Shown one piece after another: positions 1,117-32,910 of a stretch of DNA of 64,000 nucleotides. The DNA is from Mesonia hippocampi. Its GTDB lineage: Bacteria; Bacteroidota; Bacteroidia; Flavobacteriales; Flavobacteriaceae. The notes beneath the pieces were generated by a model. The model saw nothing but the letters and a program-made list of their open reading frames with translations, did no database searches and had not been told where the DNA came from. Position numbers and translations under genes: made by a program. The stretch lies in the NCBI RefSeq assembly GCF_014197445.1, contig NZ_JACIFO010000003.1, positions 1-64,000 of the forward strand, in the 5' to 3' direction. The stretch's first letter is position 1, and every line of letters begins with the position of its first letter.

Positions 1117-2382
1117 ATGGAAAAGACCCCTTTATTTACTAATGATGCTATTGTATTTGGATTATTAATGCTAGTATTGGCTTTTGTATTTTATACTTCT
1201 TCTATAAAGAAAGGATTATGGGTTAAATTTTACAAAGTTATTCCCGCTTTATTAATGTGTTATTTAATTCCGGCTATATTAAACTCTATTGGAATAATTA
1301 GCGCTAAAGAGTCTAACCTATATTATGTAGCAAGCAGGTATCTTTTACCCGCATCTCTTGTATTAATGACATTAAGTATTGATCTAAAAGCCATTTTAAA
1401 CTTAGGCCCTAAGGCGCTAATTATGTTTTTTACAGGAACTCTAGGTATTGTGATAGGCGGCCCTATAGCTATACTTATTGTAGGCTCAATTTCTCCCGAA
1501 ACAGTTGCAGGCATTGGCCCAGATGCTATATGGAGAGGTTTAGCCACACTTGCAGGTAGTTGGATTGGCGGTGGTGCAAACCAAGCTGCTATGTTAGAAA
1601 TTTTCCAATATAACCCTGAAAAATACGGAGGAATGGTTTTTGTTGATATTGTTGTAGCTAATATTTGGATGGCCGTGGTGTTAATAGGCATAGGAAGAAC
1701 AAAAGCCATCGATAAATGGCTTAAAGCAGATTCGTCTGCGATTACCGAGCTTAAAGAAAAAGTATCTAACTACACTGCCAGCATTACACGTACACCTACC
1801 TTAACCGATTATATGATTATGTTAGGTTTAGCTTTAGGAGCTGTTGGGATAGCTCATTGGGGTTCTGAGAGTATCTCTAATTTCTTGAAAGATAATTTTG
1901 AAACGTTTAATGATAGTACTTCAGCCTTATCATCGTTTACGTCTACGTTTTTCTGGATGATAACCATTGCGACATTTATCGGAATATTGCTTTCTTTTAC
2001 AAAGGCAAAAACCTATGAAGGAGCAGGTGCTAGTAAATTAGGAAGTATTTTTATCTACATCTTAGTAGCTACTATAGGTATGAAAATGGATTTAGGGATG
2101 ATATTTGACAACCCTGGGCTAATAGGTATTGGTTTAGTCTGGATGGCTATACACGCAGGCTTGCTTATTTTGGTTGCTAAACTTATTAAAGCTCCTTATT
2201 TCTTTTTAGCGGTAGGAAGCCAAGCAAATGTTGGTGGAGCCGCATCGGCTCCTGTTGTAGCCGCAGCATTTCATCCGTCATTAGCTTCTGTTGGAGTTCT
2301 TTTAGCTGTTTTAGGTTATGTTGTTGGTACTTGGAGCGCCTACGCCTGCGCTATCTTGATGCAAATTGCCTCAGGAAACTAA
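1117..2382 (+). CDS. DUF819 family integral membrane protein
   Basis: A 421-residue, very hydrophobic protein with about ten predicted membrane segments. It matches the DUF819 (YjcL-like) family in overall sequence, notably a glycine-rich GGGANQAAM motif around residue 150 and a GSQANVGGAASAPVVAAAF-type motif around residue 370. Two such inverted glycine-rich motifs in a membrane protein suggest a transporter fold, but the substrate is unknown. The start follows a candidate promoter (1068-1097). It is the first gene rightward of the rRNA promoters, which fire the other way, so it is a separate transcription unit. The family assignment is good; the function is not established. Confidence 0.85.
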   Translation: MEKTPLFTNDAIVFGLLMLVLAFVFYTSSIKKGLWVKFYKVIPALLMCYLIPAILNSIGIISAKESNLYYVASRYLLPASLVLMTLSIDLKAILNLGPKALIMFFTGTLGIVIGGPIAILIVGSISPETVAGIGPDAIWRGLATLAGSWIGGGANQAAMLEIFQYNPEKYGGMVFVDIVVANIWMAVVLIGIGRTKAIDKWLKADSSAITELKEKVSNYTASITRTPTLTDYMIMLGLALGAVGIAHWGSESISNFLKDNFETFNDSTSALSSFTSTFFWMITIATFIGILLSFTKAKTYEGAGASKLGSIFIYILVATIGMKMDLGMIFDNPGLIGIGLVWMAIHAGLLILVAKLIKAPYFFLAVGSQANVGGAASAPVVAAAFHPSLASVGVLLAVLGYVVGTWSAYACAILMQIASGN

Positions 2383-9403: not shown

Positions 9404-9898
9404 TTAAAATGGTAGACTATAATTAGAATATATACGTACTTCTCTAGCATAAACTTTGGCACCGAAAAAATTTTCTTCTTCTATCAAATATATAGTTTTA
9501 TAAACAAGTATATTATACATTTCTATCACGTTAAACTTCTCAAAAAGCTTAGGATATATTATTTTATCTTGGTTGTTATTTATCCAAGTAGTGTCTATGA
9601 GTTTGACATCAGGAACTTTTAAAGAGGCGTTTAAATACCTACTTTTTATAAAAGTTATAAAGTCTTTATCATAAATAACGTTTTCCTTAAAATAGATGGT
9701 TTTCCAATAATCATAGTCTCCTGCATATTTTCTATTCTTTAAGCCTATAAGACGAGTTTCTTGATTTTTACCTCCGTCATAATACACGTATAGCGTGTCT
9801 TTATCAAAATATTTCTCTTTTAGTTCTTGATAAGTATTTTGAGAAAACAACGGTAAAACAAGAAATTGTAATACTATAACTAAACTATATTTTTTCAT
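9404..9898 (-). CDS. Tandem paralogue 3: small exported protein, function unknown
   Basis: A 164-residue protein with a Sec signal peptide (cleavage probably after LFSQ, residue 20), so it is periplasmic or outer-membrane exposed. It is almost identical to the next paralogue over residues 1-66 and differs strongly at about 67-86 and 121-138. The blocks at 88-120 (containing SLKVPDVKLIDTTWI) and 139-154 (containing EENFFGAKVYAREV) are shared by all three. The C-terminus SLPF differs from the SPPE of the others. Its start overlaps the preceding stop by one base (TAATG). I do not recognise the family. Confidence 0.8.
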   Translation of the reverse strand: MKKYSLVIVLQFLVLPLFSQNTYQELKEKYFDKDTLYVYYDGGKNQETRLIGLKNRKYAGDYDYWKTIYFKENVIYDKDFITFIKSRYLNASLKVPDVKLIDTTWINNNQDKIIYPKLFEKFNVIEMYNILVYKTIYLIEEENFFGAKVYAREVRIYSNYSLPF

Positions 9899-10392
9899 TA
9901 TTCTGGCGGGCTATAATTAGAAGAAACGAAAACTTCCCTAGCATATACTTTAGCACCAAAAAAATTCTCCTCTTCTATCAAATAAACAACTCTTGGGGTT
10001 AAAAGCTGGTATAACTCCCAAACTTTAAACCTTTCAAACAAGTTCGGATATATTATTTTATCTTGATTGTTATTTATCCAAGTAGTGTCTATGAGTTTGA
10101 CATCAGGAACTTTTAAGGATGGATTTAAATACCTATTTTTTACAAAAACAATATAATATCTACTTTGATGTAAATATTCATCTAAATACACCTTTTTCCA
10201 ATAATCATAATCTCCTGCATATTTTCTATTCTTTAAACCTATTAAACGAGTTTCTTGATTTTTACCTCCGTCATAATACACATATAGCGTGTCTTTATCA
10301 AAATATTTCTCTTTTAGTTCTTGGTAAGTATTTTGAGAAAACACGGGTAAAAGAAGAAATTGTAATACTATAACTAAACTATATTTTTTCAT
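9898..10392 (-). CDS. Tandem paralogue 2: small exported protein, function unknown
   Basis: A 164-residue exported protein. Its first 66 residues nearly equal those of the paralogue at 9404-9898, whereas its 121-138 segment (VWELYQLLTPRVV) equals that of the paralogue at 10392-10886. This mosaic suggests gene conversion or unequal crossing-over. Segment 67-86 is unique to this copy. It is joined by one-base stop/start overlaps on both sides, so translation is probably coupled along the three genes. Tandem, internally variable exported proteins next to a predicted peptidase could be inhibitors or immunity-like partners; that is inference. Confidence 0.8.
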   Translation of the reverse strand: MKKYSLVIVLQFLLLPVFSQNTYQELKEKYFDKDTLYVYYDGGKNQETRLIGLKNRKYAGDYDYWKKVYLDEYLHQSRYYIVFVKNRYLNPSLKVPDVKLIDTTWINNNQDKIIYPNLFERFKVWELYQLLTPRVVYLIEEENFFGAKVYAREVFVSSNYSPPE

Positions 10393-10886
10393 TATTCTGG
10401 CGGGCTATAATTAGAATATATACGTACTTCTCTGGCATAAACTTTGGCACCGAAAAAATTCTCCTCTTCTATCAAATAAACAACTCTTGGGGTTAAAAGC
10501 TGGTATAACTCCCAAACATTAAACCTTTCAAAAAGTTCCGGATATACAATCTTATCTTGGTTCTTATTTATCCAAGTAGTGTCTATGAGTTTTAAATCCG
10601 GGATTTTTAAAGAAAAATCAAGGTATTTGCTTTTTATAAAACGAATAAAGTCCTCATCATAAAACACATTCTTTTTAAAGAAAAACACTTTTTCATAATA
10701 GTAAGGTCCTAACAACTTACTTCCTACAGAAACAATTTCTGATTTTTGTAACTCTCCCCCATTGTAATAAACATATAAAGTATCTTTATCAAAATACATC
10801 TCCTTTAATTCTTGGTAATTATTTTGTCCAAAAAAATGCAATGGCAAAAACTGAAAGAAAAATATTATATAAATTGAAACTTTCAT
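10392..10886 (-). CDS. Tandem paralogue 1: small exported protein, function unknown
   Basis: A 164-residue exported protein, the most divergent of the three in the N-terminal half (MKVSIYIIFFFQFLPLHFFG signal region), but sharing the blocks NYQELKEMYFDKDTLYVYY, LIDTTWI and EENFFGAKVYAREV. It is the first of the three copies and starts only 4 bp after the stop of the putative metallopeptidase lipoprotein gene, so the four genes look like one operon. No catalytic motif is visible. Confidence 0.8.
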   Translation of the reverse strand: MKVSIYIIFFFQFLPLHFFGQNNYQELKEMYFDKDTLYVYYNGGELQKSEIVSVGSKLLGPYYYEKVFFFKKNVFYDEDFIRFIKSKYLDFSLKIPDLKLIDTTWINKNQDKIVYPELFERFNVWELYQLLTPRVVYLIEEENFFGAKVYAREVRIYSNYSPPE

Positions 10887-10890
10887 ATAT

Positions 10891-12782
10891 CTAATTTTTA
10901 CTAAAACTTCGCCCTACAGTAATGTATCTTCCATAAATGTGAAATTCTATATCATCACTTTTTATTTCGTCATCAAATGTTTGGGTATGGTGCAAGCCTT
11001 CCATACTATAATAATAGAAAAAATCGTTCCAATTAAAAGGAGTTGGAGGAACAGTAAGTCCATTATGAGTTCCTCCAAAGTCTAAAGACTCTGCAGAATT
11101 CTGTTCATTTTGCGGTATCATGTCATCTTTTACCACTGCCAAGTTACTAGCAAGGGTTGGCACTAAATGGTTGAACATAAAACTGTGCTGGTCGCTATTG
11201 GGACTGTTAAAGTTATTGTACATATCGTTAATCATCATACTTAAATCCTTATTGTTAATGTTAGGCAAAGTTGCCCCTGCATTACTGTCTAATTTTTTTA
11301 AAGTTAAAAAAGCATGAATAGTTTCGTGTAGTATAGTTCTTGCCACCGTTATATTAGAAGCTTTAGGCAAATTAATCCCTCCTACTAAAGCTTGTTTATT
11401 AATCCGTATAACAATATTTACAGTGTTAATACTATTGGTAGTATTATTGTATGTACCGTTTACCAAATCGGTATGCCCATTAGCTTGTTTTGTGGGATTT
11501 TGTGTTGAGGGAAGGTTATCTGCTATCTCAAAACTTACATTTAGATTAGGGTTTTGTCCAAAAGTTGCTTGAAATATATTTTTAAATAAAGAAGTATTTG
11601 TTAGTTTATCATAAATATTTATAAACCTTACCTTTTCTGGTTCTGGGTTTGTAGCATTTGGTGTAACTGAAGTTAAATCTATATTATAGGGTGATTTAAA
11701 CGAGCGAGAAACATCCATATTAAACGAAGGATGTTCGCTTATTATATTTACTGCTTCATTAGCAAACTCCATCGCTTCAGGGGAGAAATGGTTTTCTATT
11801 GCAAAATTAATTACCTCTCTAAAAGCAGCTTTGCTTTCTTCTGTATGAAGTGGAGATAACAACTTTGCAAATAATTTATTTATTAATGTTGTTACACTTG
11901 CTTTGTTGCCGCTGGTTATTAACCAATTTTCAGCTTCCTCGCTTAAACCTAGTGTTCCTGCTATAAATGTAATTTTGGCAGCTGTATAATCGTCTATTAG
12001 TTTAGGCTCTGGTATTTGTGTAAAAGGCTCTTGGGTAAAGTTTTCATTAGTGTAATCGTTTCCTGGTATATATTGCGGATAACCATACCATCCAGAAGGA
12101 TTTGTACTTCCTCCTCCACTAGTACCACTTGGAGTTCCACCTATATTAAAGCCACCTCCTTTTTCACCATCCTCGGTAACATAAACCGCTCCACATGGGA
12201 CACCTTGTGTAAATTCTTGTACATAACCTTTAGTACCACATGTACAACTCGGATCTCCTGGAAAATGCCCTGCACATATACATGGGTATATCCCTACTAC
12301 TGACACCTCTCCACAAGGATATGATTGTATATTTTTACCAAAAACAGGTTCCCATTCTATAGGCTCATCGGTTTCTATAGCATAACGCATCACAAAACCT
12401 CTTGTTCCTTCGCTATCTTCTACAACCACCAAATTCTCATAATACGATTTTGGAGTTTTATAATATTCCTCTTCTAAAGAAATTATTCCAAAAGTGTACG
12501 AAGTTACTCCCTCTCGCTCTACCTTATAGCCAGGACCTAAATACGTATGTGTATAAGGCATTTCTCCGCTTAAATTATTAACCGTATTAAATTGAAAACT
12601 TGAACTCAACGTTTTAAACTCTTCAATAGATAATTCTTGTATCCCTCCTTTTTTTGTTGTTTCGCTTACGCTTGTTTCTTCTATAAGGACATCTTCCTCA
12701 CAACTAGAAAAAATAAATACACTTAGTATAAAAACTAGCTTAAACCAGTAAAATCTGTGTGTGTGTGTGTGTGTTGTTTCAT
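10891..12782 (-). CDS. Putative zinc-metallopeptidase lipoprotein, phase-variable (frame OFF here)
   Basis: The long open frame (10891 up to about 12804) has no ATG. The only ATG (12780-12782) starts a frame that runs through an AC repeat and stops at 12735-12737. Removing one dinucleotide joins that ATG to the long frame. It then gives a lipoprotein signal: MKQHTHTH, a hydrophobic core, and lipobox FSSC followed by EED. The mature part has a Cys-rich segment, a Gly/Ser linker and a helical region. It also has the zincin motif HETIH (11314-11328, about residue 485 of the restored 629-residue protein). A TTG at 12609 could start a 572-residue form lacking the signal. I do not recognise the family; peptidase activity is inferred from HExxH alone. 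Confidence 0.7.
12756..12774 (-). repeat. Dinucleotide (GT/AC) simple sequence repeat at a gene start
   Basis: Nine GT units (12757-12774), with a preceding T extending the alternation to 19 bases. The tract begins in the third codon after the ATG at 12782 and lies before the signal-peptide core. With nine units the ATG is in frame +2 relative to the lipoprotein frame; with eight or eleven units it is in frame. This is the classic geometry of slipped-strand phase variation. Confidence 0.85.
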
Positions 12783-12928
12783 TATATAAATTTTTTAAGT
12801 TAATTTAAGTTAAATATATTAAAAACTATCTCAATAAAGAAACATTTAAGTAATAAATAAAAATTAACTTTAACAACTTCTATATAAACTATACTTCGTT
12901 TACAAGTATTAAAACCATTTACTATGGC

Positions 12929-25137: not shown

Positions 25138-25515
25138 TTATTTAAGCTCAACCTCTGCTCCAGCTTCTTCTAACTGAGATTTAAGTGCTTCTGCTTCGTC
25201 TTTAGCGATACCTTCTTTAACTGGCTTAGGAGCTCCGTCTACCAATTCTTTAGCATCTTTAAGACCAAGACCAGTTAATTCTTTAACTAGTTTTACAACT
25301 GCTAATTTAGATCCTCCTGCAGCTTTAAGAATTACGTCGAATTCTGTTTGCTCATCAGCAGCATCTGCACCACCAGCAGCAGCACCTCCAGCAACTGCAA
25401 CTGCAGCAGCAGCAGGCTCGATACCATACTCTTCTTTTAAAATATCTGCTAACTCATTTACTTCTTTTACAGTAAGGTTAACTAATTGTTCTGCGAAATC
25501 TTTTAAATCTGCCAT
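25138..25515 (-). CDS. rplL: 50S ribosomal protein L7/L12
   Basis: A 125-residue stalk protein that recruits translational GTPases. It has an N-terminal dimerisation domain (to about 35), an Ala/Gly-rich hinge (about 36-55) and a C-terminal domain with the conserved [23 protein letters not shown] segment. It is 56 bp downstream of rplJ. Confidence 0.97.
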
Positions 25516-31351: not shown

Positions 31352-31803
31352 TTTATGTCGCAGGTTTGTACTCTTTACCATCAATCACCATTTTGGCGAT
31401 AATGGTAAGGGAATTTTCGCCAAAACCTTACCCCTACAACATCTAATAATATTTATGTCGCAGGCTTGTACTCTTTACCATCAATCACCATTTTGGCGAT
31501 AATAGTAAGGGAATTTTCGCCAAAACCTTACTCCTACAACATCTAATAATATTTATGTCGCAGGTTTGTACTCTTTACCATCAATCACCATTTTGGCGAT
31601 AATAGTAAGGGAATTTTCGCCAAAACCTTACCCCTACAACATCTAATAATATTTATGTCGCAGGTTTGTACTCTTTACCATCAATCACCATTTTGGCGAT
31701 AATAGTAAGGGAATTTTCGCCAAAACCTTACCCCTACAACATCTAATAATATTTATGTCGCAGGTTTGTACTCTTTACCATCAATCACCATTTTGGCGAT
31801 AAT
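31352..31803. repeat. Four 100-bp tandem repeats copying the 3' end of the acyl-CoA dehydrogenase gene
   Basis: Exact period of 100 bp: full units at 31352-31451, 31452-31551, 31552-31651 and 31652-31751, then a partial fifth (31752-31803) that is the genuine 3' end of the dehydrogenase gene. Each unit carries the last 17 codons including the stop, plus about 48 bp of downstream sequence. Units differ by only one to three bases. Each contains TTTTGGCGA/TCGCCAAAA and an interleaved GTAAGG/CCTTAC inverted repeat. The array separates the dehydrogenase gene from the rpsU promoter. No spacers are present, so it is not a CRISPR array. Confidence 0.95.
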
Positions 31804-32910
31804 TTCTTTCAAAATTTCAGAAGTACCACCGCCAATAGGCCCGAGCCTACTATCTCTAAACATTCTTGCTAATGGGTAATCTTCCATATAACCATAACCG
31901 CCAAGAAGTTGTAAGCAACCATACATTACCTCATCTGCCATTTTAGTTGATAACATTTTAGACATGCTGGCTTCTTTAACTACATATTCACCATCTAACA
32001 TACGTTTGGTAATGGAATAATTAAACTCTTTACACATTTCTGCCTGACTAGCTAACTCTGCTACTTTATGCCTCAACGCCTGGAATTTATCGATAGAACG
32101 CCCAAAAGCCGTGCGTTCGCTCATATACTGAATAGTGTACTCTAACGCATACTGAGCTCTTGCATGTGCATTTACTCCCATCACCAATCGCTCTAAAGCA
32201 AAATGCTGCATAATGTAAGGAAAGCCTTTTCCTTCTTCTCCCATTAAGTTTTCTACAGGAATTTTCACATTGTCAAAAGCGATTTCTGCCGTATCTGAAG
32301 CTCTCCAACCTAACTTATTTAGCTTTGTTGATGATATTCCTGGGGTTTCTCTATCTACTACAAAAATGCTCATTCCTTTATTACCTAGTTCAGGTGAAGT
32401 CTTTGCTGCCACTACCAAATAATCTGAATAAACACCGTTTGTTATAAATGTTTTTGACCCGTTTAAGATATAATGCCCTCCTTCTTTTACAGCAGTAGTT
32501 TTCATACCAGCTACATCAGACCCTCCAAAAGGCTCTGTTATACAAAGGCAACCAATCATATCACCACTTATGCTAGGTGCTAAATATTTTTCTTTAATTT
32601 CGTGATTTCCTTCTTTATTAAGATGCGTCATTGCCAAATAAGCATGCGCCCACATTGCAGCTGCAAATCCACCAGAATTAACACGTTGAAGTTCTTCTAA
32701 GAAAATTACGGTATAGAATAAATCTAAATTTAAGCCTCCATATTCTTCTGGAGAGTTAAGCCCAAAATAGCCCATATCTCCAAATTTCTTCCAAATAAAA
32801 CGTTCTATAGTACCTGTTTCTTCCCACTTATCAATATACGGCACTACTTCTTTCTGCAAGAAATCGCGTAAACTCTTTCGAAACATTTCATGTTCTTCTG
32901 TAAAATACAT
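31753..32910 (-). CDS. Acyl-CoA dehydrogenase family protein
   Basis: A 385-residue FAD enzyme of fatty-acid or amino-acid catabolism. It has the CLCITEPFGGSD and GSKTFITNG blocks of the family and the C-terminal signature LLGGYGYMEDYPLARMFRD. The catalytic base is probably Glu343, and GPIGGGTSEIL follows. The acyl chain preferred is unknown. The last 17 codons lie in a tandem repeat (31352-31803), but the reading frame itself is complete and of normal length. Confidence 0.92.
   Translation of the reverse strand: MYFTEEHEMFRKSLRDFLQKEVVPYIDKWEETGTIERFIWKKFGDMGYFGLNSPEEYGGLNLDLFYTVIFLEELQRVNSGGFAAAMWAHAYLAMTHLNKEGNHEIKEKYLAPSISGDMIGCLCITEPFGGSDVAGMKTTAVKEGGHYILNGSKTFITNGVYSDYLVVAAKTSPELGNKGMSIFVVDRETPGISSTKLNKLGWRASDTAEIAFDNVKIPVENLMGEEGKGFPYIMQHFALERLVMGVNAHARAQYALEYTIQYMSERTAFGRSIDKFQALRHKVAELASQAEMCKEFNYSITKRMLDGEYVVKEASMSKMLSTKMADEVMYGCLQLLGGYGYMEDYPLARMFRDSRLGPIGGGTSEILKEIIAKMVIDGKEYKPAT

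Follow-up and report, generated by a model that had tools for sequence, protein, structure and literature searches.

In a 64,000-nucleotide stretch of the Mesonia hippocampi genome (contig NZ_JACIFO010000003.1, positions 1 to 64,000; hereafter the window), we analyzed a minus-strand gene at 10891-12804 that carries an AC/GT dinucleotide tract between its start codon and its signal peptide. The best explanation for this arrangement, to which we give a probability of roughly 0.75, is that the gene encodes an antibacterial polymorphic lipoprotein toxin whose expression the tract switches by phase variation (a contingency switch), and that it was sampled in its OFF state. Replication slippage would alter the number of repeat units and thereby shift the ATG into or out of register with the signal peptide. 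With the two in register, the cell would make a lipoprotein anchored in the membrane, its C-terminal metallopeptidase domain displayed to neighbouring cells upon contact; otherwise, which is the state of the sequenced genome, only a peptide of 15 amino acids would be produced. Three small exported proteins encoded downstream, if still made, would protect cells in either state as likely immunity proteins.

The tract is a TG dinucleotide repeated 9.5 times (19 nt, 12756-12774, minus strand). The sole ATG nearby (12782-12780) reads through it and ends at a TAG at 12737-12735, which gives a frame of only 15 codons (12735-12782), just as the initial annotation of this DNA had read it. The long frame, on the same strand, also runs through the tract and extends over 637 codons from stop to stop (12804 to 10891); it carries no second lesion, and the ATG at 12782 is out of its register. 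Its translation reads THTHTH and then RFYWFKLVFILSVFIFSSC, with an FSSC motif at 12711-12700 that follows a hydrophobic core and that we take, by eye and by the usual lipobox rule, to be a lipobox. The lipoprotein signal that the annotation had recognized is therefore present, yet at the current tract length no in-frame start codon stands ahead of it, whether ATG, GTG, or TTG. The accompanying claim that the long frame has no ATG holds up to the lipobox but not further inside, where the earliest in-frame starts are TTG 12609, ATG 12561, and GTG 12429. When the window was shuffled 100 times with its dinucleotide composition preserved, the tract never reappeared, and an exact (GT)9 is present nowhere else in the 2.59 Mb of the genome. 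These results show that the tract is not a product of chance, and that the gene has the layout of a contingency gene, in which a non-triplet simple repeat stands between the start codon and the remaining coding frame.

To place the gene among its homologues, we used 16 genomes of the window's genus and a sample of 397 genomes of its family (G-numbers denote genomes and L-numbers loci). A scan of the genus for (AC)6.5 or longer returned 4 distinct places in the 16 genomes, 3 of which (the window, G011, and G015) lie directly after the ATG of a gene of the window's kind, the G011 copy being truncated. In G015, a 712-codon frame in register with the ATG encodes a lipobox (TSSC) and a second type of C-terminus with an HExxH motif, so that this gene is ON. 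The G011 and G009 copies are without the lipoprotein part and broken further on. The AC tract measures 17 nt in G011 and G015, where it is in the ATG frame, versus 13 nt in G009, where it is out of frame. Among homologues of the C-terminal domain, other repeats occupy this place: an 11.3-copy 7-nt repeat in G378, a 5.2-copy 8-nt repeat in G007 (reached via the protein of G015), a 4-nt repeat in G513 (5.2 copies) and G953 (8.5 copies; the measured difference between the two is 13 nt, and both are OFF), and a 5.5-copy 11-nt repeat in G799 that itself encodes the hydrophobic core. In all 5 of these genomes, the ATG frame meets an early stop and the long frame has no ATG ahead of the signal, hence the gene is OFF. 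The units found in tract-bearing homologues are thus 2, 4, 7, 8, and 11 nt long, none of them a multiple of 3. As a separate observation, the G799 repeat (L127, 560-620) lies inside the signal peptide and encodes hydrophobic residues in all three frames.

We scored as a tract any repeat with a unit of 2-11 nt that is not a multiple of 3, in at least 4 copies and at least 16 nt long, located between -20 and +100 nt of the frame. The 55 distinct homologous genes were sorted by eye into 39 assessable ones and 16 that were set aside because of a contig edge, a deleted N-terminus, an orphan tail, no signal seen, or an upstream part outside the data examined. A frame-breaking tract was found at the same place in 7 of the 39 homologues with a visible lipoprotein signal, or in 5 of 37 when the window and G015, both reached through the tract, are left out. 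A mechanical recount over all 55 genes returned the same 7; its signal finder saw a signal in 36 of the others, some of which are neighbouring genes, and reported none for 12, among which at least 5 have a signal visible by eye. As a control, open reading frames (ORFs) of at least 150 amino acids from 60 stretches of 20 kb were examined from -20 to +100 nt of the stop-to-stop frame, and no such tract was present in 797 genes, including 105 lipoprotein-like ones; this set was enlarged from an earlier one of 259 genes (11 lipoprotein-like), the lipoprotein pattern being loosened in between. Fisher tests gave 3e-10 for 7/39 against 0/797, 1e-7 for 5/37 against 0/797, and 1e-3 for 5/37 against the 0/105 lipoprotein-like controls, all of them values that are too small because the homologues are related by descent and their independence is overstated. 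The repeat is therefore above chance and enriched in this gene class, as is the case for contingency genes.

An AC tract alone is no marker of such genes, since the 19 tracts of (AC)8 or longer that occur in 18 of the 397 family genomes are mostly distant from gene starts, and one of them (L033) sits just ahead of a gene of another kind. Some candidates were rejected. L041 (G283) has an ATG with (AC)8.5 behind it, but was not counted because the frame of the next gene is then interrupted by stops. L021 (G220), with a G9 run near the signal peptide and a later ATG, was counted as having no tract, and so was G001, where the ATG and the lipoprotein frame are in different registers and the 8-nt repeat behind that ATG has 2.4 copies, below the criteria.

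The same design recurs with a tetranucleotide. An ATG-anchored scan for (AAAC)n across 398 genomes of the genus of G513 returned 12 places in 9 genomes, and the reversed control pattern gave none among the matches listed. Behind the tract, all 12 sites have a lipoprotein-type frame, which is 445-644 amino acids long in 11 of them and only 96 in the remaining one (L171, G772). The tracts span 17-64 nt and leave 2 genes ON (G887 and G1041, with an in-frame ATG before the signal) and 10 OFF, 9 of the latter being full length. These sites are not all independent, as 7 of the 12 genes share N-terminal modules with others of the set. G953 and G693 contain two such genes each, within a few kb. The G1041 gene, which is ON, shares a near-identical stretch of about 410 residues with one of the G953 genes, which is OFF; beyond it, the two have different C-termini and different downstream genes. 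Nonsynonymous and synonymous divergence between the OFF genes of G513 and G953 are 0.088 (dN) and 0.296 (dS), a ratio of 0.30 over 597 codons, which indicates that selection has kept the silent frame working, as would be expected if it were occasionally switched on. When 10 proteins were compared with Pfam, C-termini scored above the cut-off for Tox-MPTase3 (4e-16, L178) and for the Tae4 amidase effector (8e-12, L175); L173 matched Peptidase_C39_2 under the cut-off, and the remaining 7 gave weak matches or none. Single-linkage clustering of 16 switch-bearing proteins yielded 8 N-terminal and 6 C-terminal groups. Because G799, with its 11-nt unit, and G1077, with a 4-nt unit, fall in a common N-terminal group (60% identity over 173 amino acids), the repeat keeps its position but not its kind. 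Differences in tract length and frame between related copies, namely AC tracts of 13 versus 17 nt and (AAAC)n genes both ON and OFF, are differences among these relatives, the window gene itself having no tract-bearing orthologue to set beside it. The slippage switch that had been proposed for the window gene from its sequence alone is thus supported both by the exact anatomy of the locus and by relatives that have repeats at the same position with other unit lengths, differing tract lengths, and both frames occupied.

Beyond that proposal, the gene appears to be of the polymorphic-toxin type. A search of the genus with the window protein matched 4 of the 16 genomes. In G005 and G012, only residues 4-319 and 9-319 are matched, the C-termini differ from that of the window, and the genes have ATG-led signals ending in ISC and no tract. 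G001 contains a decayed, internally deleted copy of the window gene that matches residues 3-174 and 517-614. The family sample yielded matches in 15 of 397 genomes, which are strong only over about residues 308-614 and stand behind other N-termini; a contig of a metagenome-assembled genome (L002) likewise matches residues 308-614. Because the N-terminal part is found with other C-termini and the C-terminal part behind other N-termini, the long frame can be divided into an N-terminal module common to G005 and G012 (query residues about 1-316, 11791-12738) and a C-terminal domain with matches in other genera (residues about 317-615, 10894-11790), the conserved and exchangeable parts by which polymorphic toxins are recognized in sequence. 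The C-terminal domain contains the motif HETIH (11314-11328), in which H, E, I, and H are invariant in all 8 aligned homologues and which we take to be an HExxH zinc-peptidase signature. The L178 protein exceeds the Tox-MPTase3 cut-off with 59.8 bits, and a profile comparison of its C-terminal part with that of the window protein aligned 41 columns around HExxH with a probability of 70. Against NCBIfam, none of 6 proteins scored above the cut-off, the window protein giving one sub-threshold HExxH match. We therefore regard the domain as a putative metallopeptidase toxin, an assignment that is likely from these similarities rather than proven. No match to the protein was found in a plasmid collection. 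Synteny could not define an empty site, since the neighbouring TonB receptor has relatives in all 16 genus genomes (best identities 30-31% in G009, G011, and G015, and 53% in G007). At L002 (2291-4204), a second lipoprotein with a different C-terminus adjoins the C-domain homologue; its motif HHLIPWE looks nuclease-like to us.

Four nucleotides after the long frame begin three tandem genes (9404-10886, minus strand) for 164-amino acid proteins with signal peptides. The copies, at 10392-10886, 9898-10392, and 9404-9898, derive from a 494-bp tandem duplication in which the start of a copy shares one base with the stop of the copy before it. A small exported protein also follows the C-domain gene in all 6 aligned loci (L002, L008, L009, L011, L012, and L013), with identities of 17-26%. 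A profile built from the proteins of these 6 loci recovered all 3 window proteins with E-values of 3e-11 to 8e-13 (best of 677 decoys 0.033), and the reverse profile recovered 5 of the 6 at 6e-6 to 0.003 and L012 at 0.073 (best decoy 0.11). The profiles thus support the relatedness of the small exported genes of the window and of the 6 loci. By analogy with linked toxin-immunity pairs, the 164-amino acid proteins are likely immunity proteins, and because these putative immunity proteins are exported, the toxin may act in the periplasm or at the cell surface. Single 164-amino acid homologues about 65% identical to them are present in three close relatives, G009, G011, and G015 (L079 5185-5688, L080 5263-5766, and L081 5125-5628), where the surroundings are different and the ORFs listed next to them include no C-domain gene; these are possibly orphan immunity genes. 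The decayed G001 copy (L006, 5' end near 2028-2100, minus strand) adjoins a shortened homologue of the 164-amino acid protein. Elsewhere, a tract-bearing gene is followed by arrays in which short ORFs resembling toxin tails occur with small exported ORFs (L076 2-1824 and L077 3846-5666).

Several findings weigh against a switched toxin. The switch is not a general property of the homologues, since 32 of 39 have no such tract, and we found none among them that is an orthologue of the window gene with a tract, G005 and G012 being without one. Under lenient repeat criteria, 20 of the 797 controls also score (3 of the 105 lipoprotein-like ones), which brings the Fisher value for 5/37 to 4e-3, with the same overstated independence. 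In the G513/G953 pair, dN/dS reaches 0.52 in the last 147 codons. Regarding the C-terminal domain, the window protein missed the gathering cut-off of Tox-MPTase3 (PF15639) with 12.5 bits versus 25, and its predicted model, of moderate confidence (mean predicted local distance difference test score 73.9), gave 49 matches in the PDB with none at E <=0.001, the best being a neutral metalloprotease at 0.27; fold comparison lends no support to the identity of the domain. Finally, G158, G817, and G001 lack both an in-frame ATG ahead of the signal and a repeat that reaches the criteria, and homologues with lesions at other places are common (for example in G330, G059, G107, G405, G1032, G766, and G1049). 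Because ordinary lesions outside any repeat are so frequent in this gene class, pseudogenisation is the main rival: the window gene, like the decayed copy in G001, would be dead or dying, and the tract length would merely be the lesion that silences it. We consider this unlikely, because the 637-codon frame is without another lesion, 9 of the 10 OFF (AAAC)n genes are full length, dN/dS is 0.30 between two OFF genes, and ON copies of the same design exist in G015, G887, and G1041. Moreover, decay would leave the repeated placement of non-triplet repeats unexplained.

It is more doubtful still that the tract is no switch at all and that the gene is already expressed at its present length, either because translation begins at a non-canonical codon (ATT 12804 or TTG 12609) or by way of slippage during transcription or translation. 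No stop interrupts the long frame through the tract up to 12804, so an unusual start at that point would keep the signal peptide, and TTG 12609 is available as well; however, the product of the latter would be without a signal peptide, the homologues in G005 and G012 and the ON genes of G887 and G1041 use an in-frame ATG before the signal, and the common layout with an ATG ahead of the tract would be a coincidence. An assembly or sequencing error in a tract that is really in frame is the least probable explanation of all, because, although dinucleotide runs are error-prone, 19 nt is short for modern reads and out-of-frame tracts recur in independent genomes.

If the phase-variation switch operates as proposed, armed and unarmed cells coexist in one clone, and both the cost of a contact weapon and whether immunity outlasts toxin expression become testable by counting repeat units. 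Different repeats occupy this position in some related toxin genes, an indication that leaving the expression of a weapon to chance can be favoured. For the family as a whole, we see about equal grounds for and against a broader interpretation, in which contact-acting lipoprotein toxins have repeatedly come under slippage switches at one fixed spot, with differing units and sometimes two side by side, while their immunity genes are in the open; each clone would in that case mix armed with unarmed cells at random, maybe all of them immune, combining bet-hedging of the weapon with swapping of C-terminal toxins. In addition, because OFF copies have no in-frame start before the signal, automatic annotation may miss such toxins or assign them wrong starts.

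Two other repeats were seen in the window. At 31352-31803, a 100-bp unit is repeated 4.5 times with 98% identity and extends into an ORF at 31753-32910, and at 25356-25415 an imperfect CAG/15-bp repeat lies within a small ORF (25138-25515).

Simple-sequence contingency loci are known in Haemophilus, Neisseria, and Campylobacter, and most known cases of phase variation concern surface structures that face a host. As in those loci, the length of a repeat here sets the reading frame of a predicted surface protein. The likeness may extend to the FSD genes of Ornithobacterium hominis, for which a putative phase-variation mechanism has been named (PMC13183296). Unlike in either case, the genes described here resemble antibacterial polymorphic toxins rather than genes for antigens or adhesins, and relatives differ in their repeat unit. 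In architecture, they are similar to the SitA toxins of myxobacteria, lipoproteins with conserved N-terminal escort modules, swapped C-terminal toxins, and a linked immunity gene (PMC8546572); in that paper, 'phase variation' appears once, within a cited title. This likeness is one of architecture, and the genes of the window's kind differ from SitA in that their small partners are exported, their named C-termini are of peptidase or amidase types and not nucleases, and they carry a proposed slippage switch. They are also similar to the lipobox polymorphic toxins APD1 and APD2 of Amoebophilus, which have a lipobox, a conserved N-terminal part, and a polymorphic C-terminal part (PMC3482391); the same paper names the Tox-MPTase3 family to which one switch-bearing relative belongs, and 'phase variation' is absent from its first 300,000 of 357,715 characters. 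In the consulted part of the MafB paper, phase variation is named for the capsule and in cited titles (PMC4287609). Searches of an open-access library, with most subscription papers outside this scope, showed no paper whose title or opening abstract lines describe repeat-switched polymorphic toxins in this group. Slippage contingency loci and modular lipoprotein toxins are each known, and what seems new here, as judged from that open-access library, is their apparent combination in one gene.
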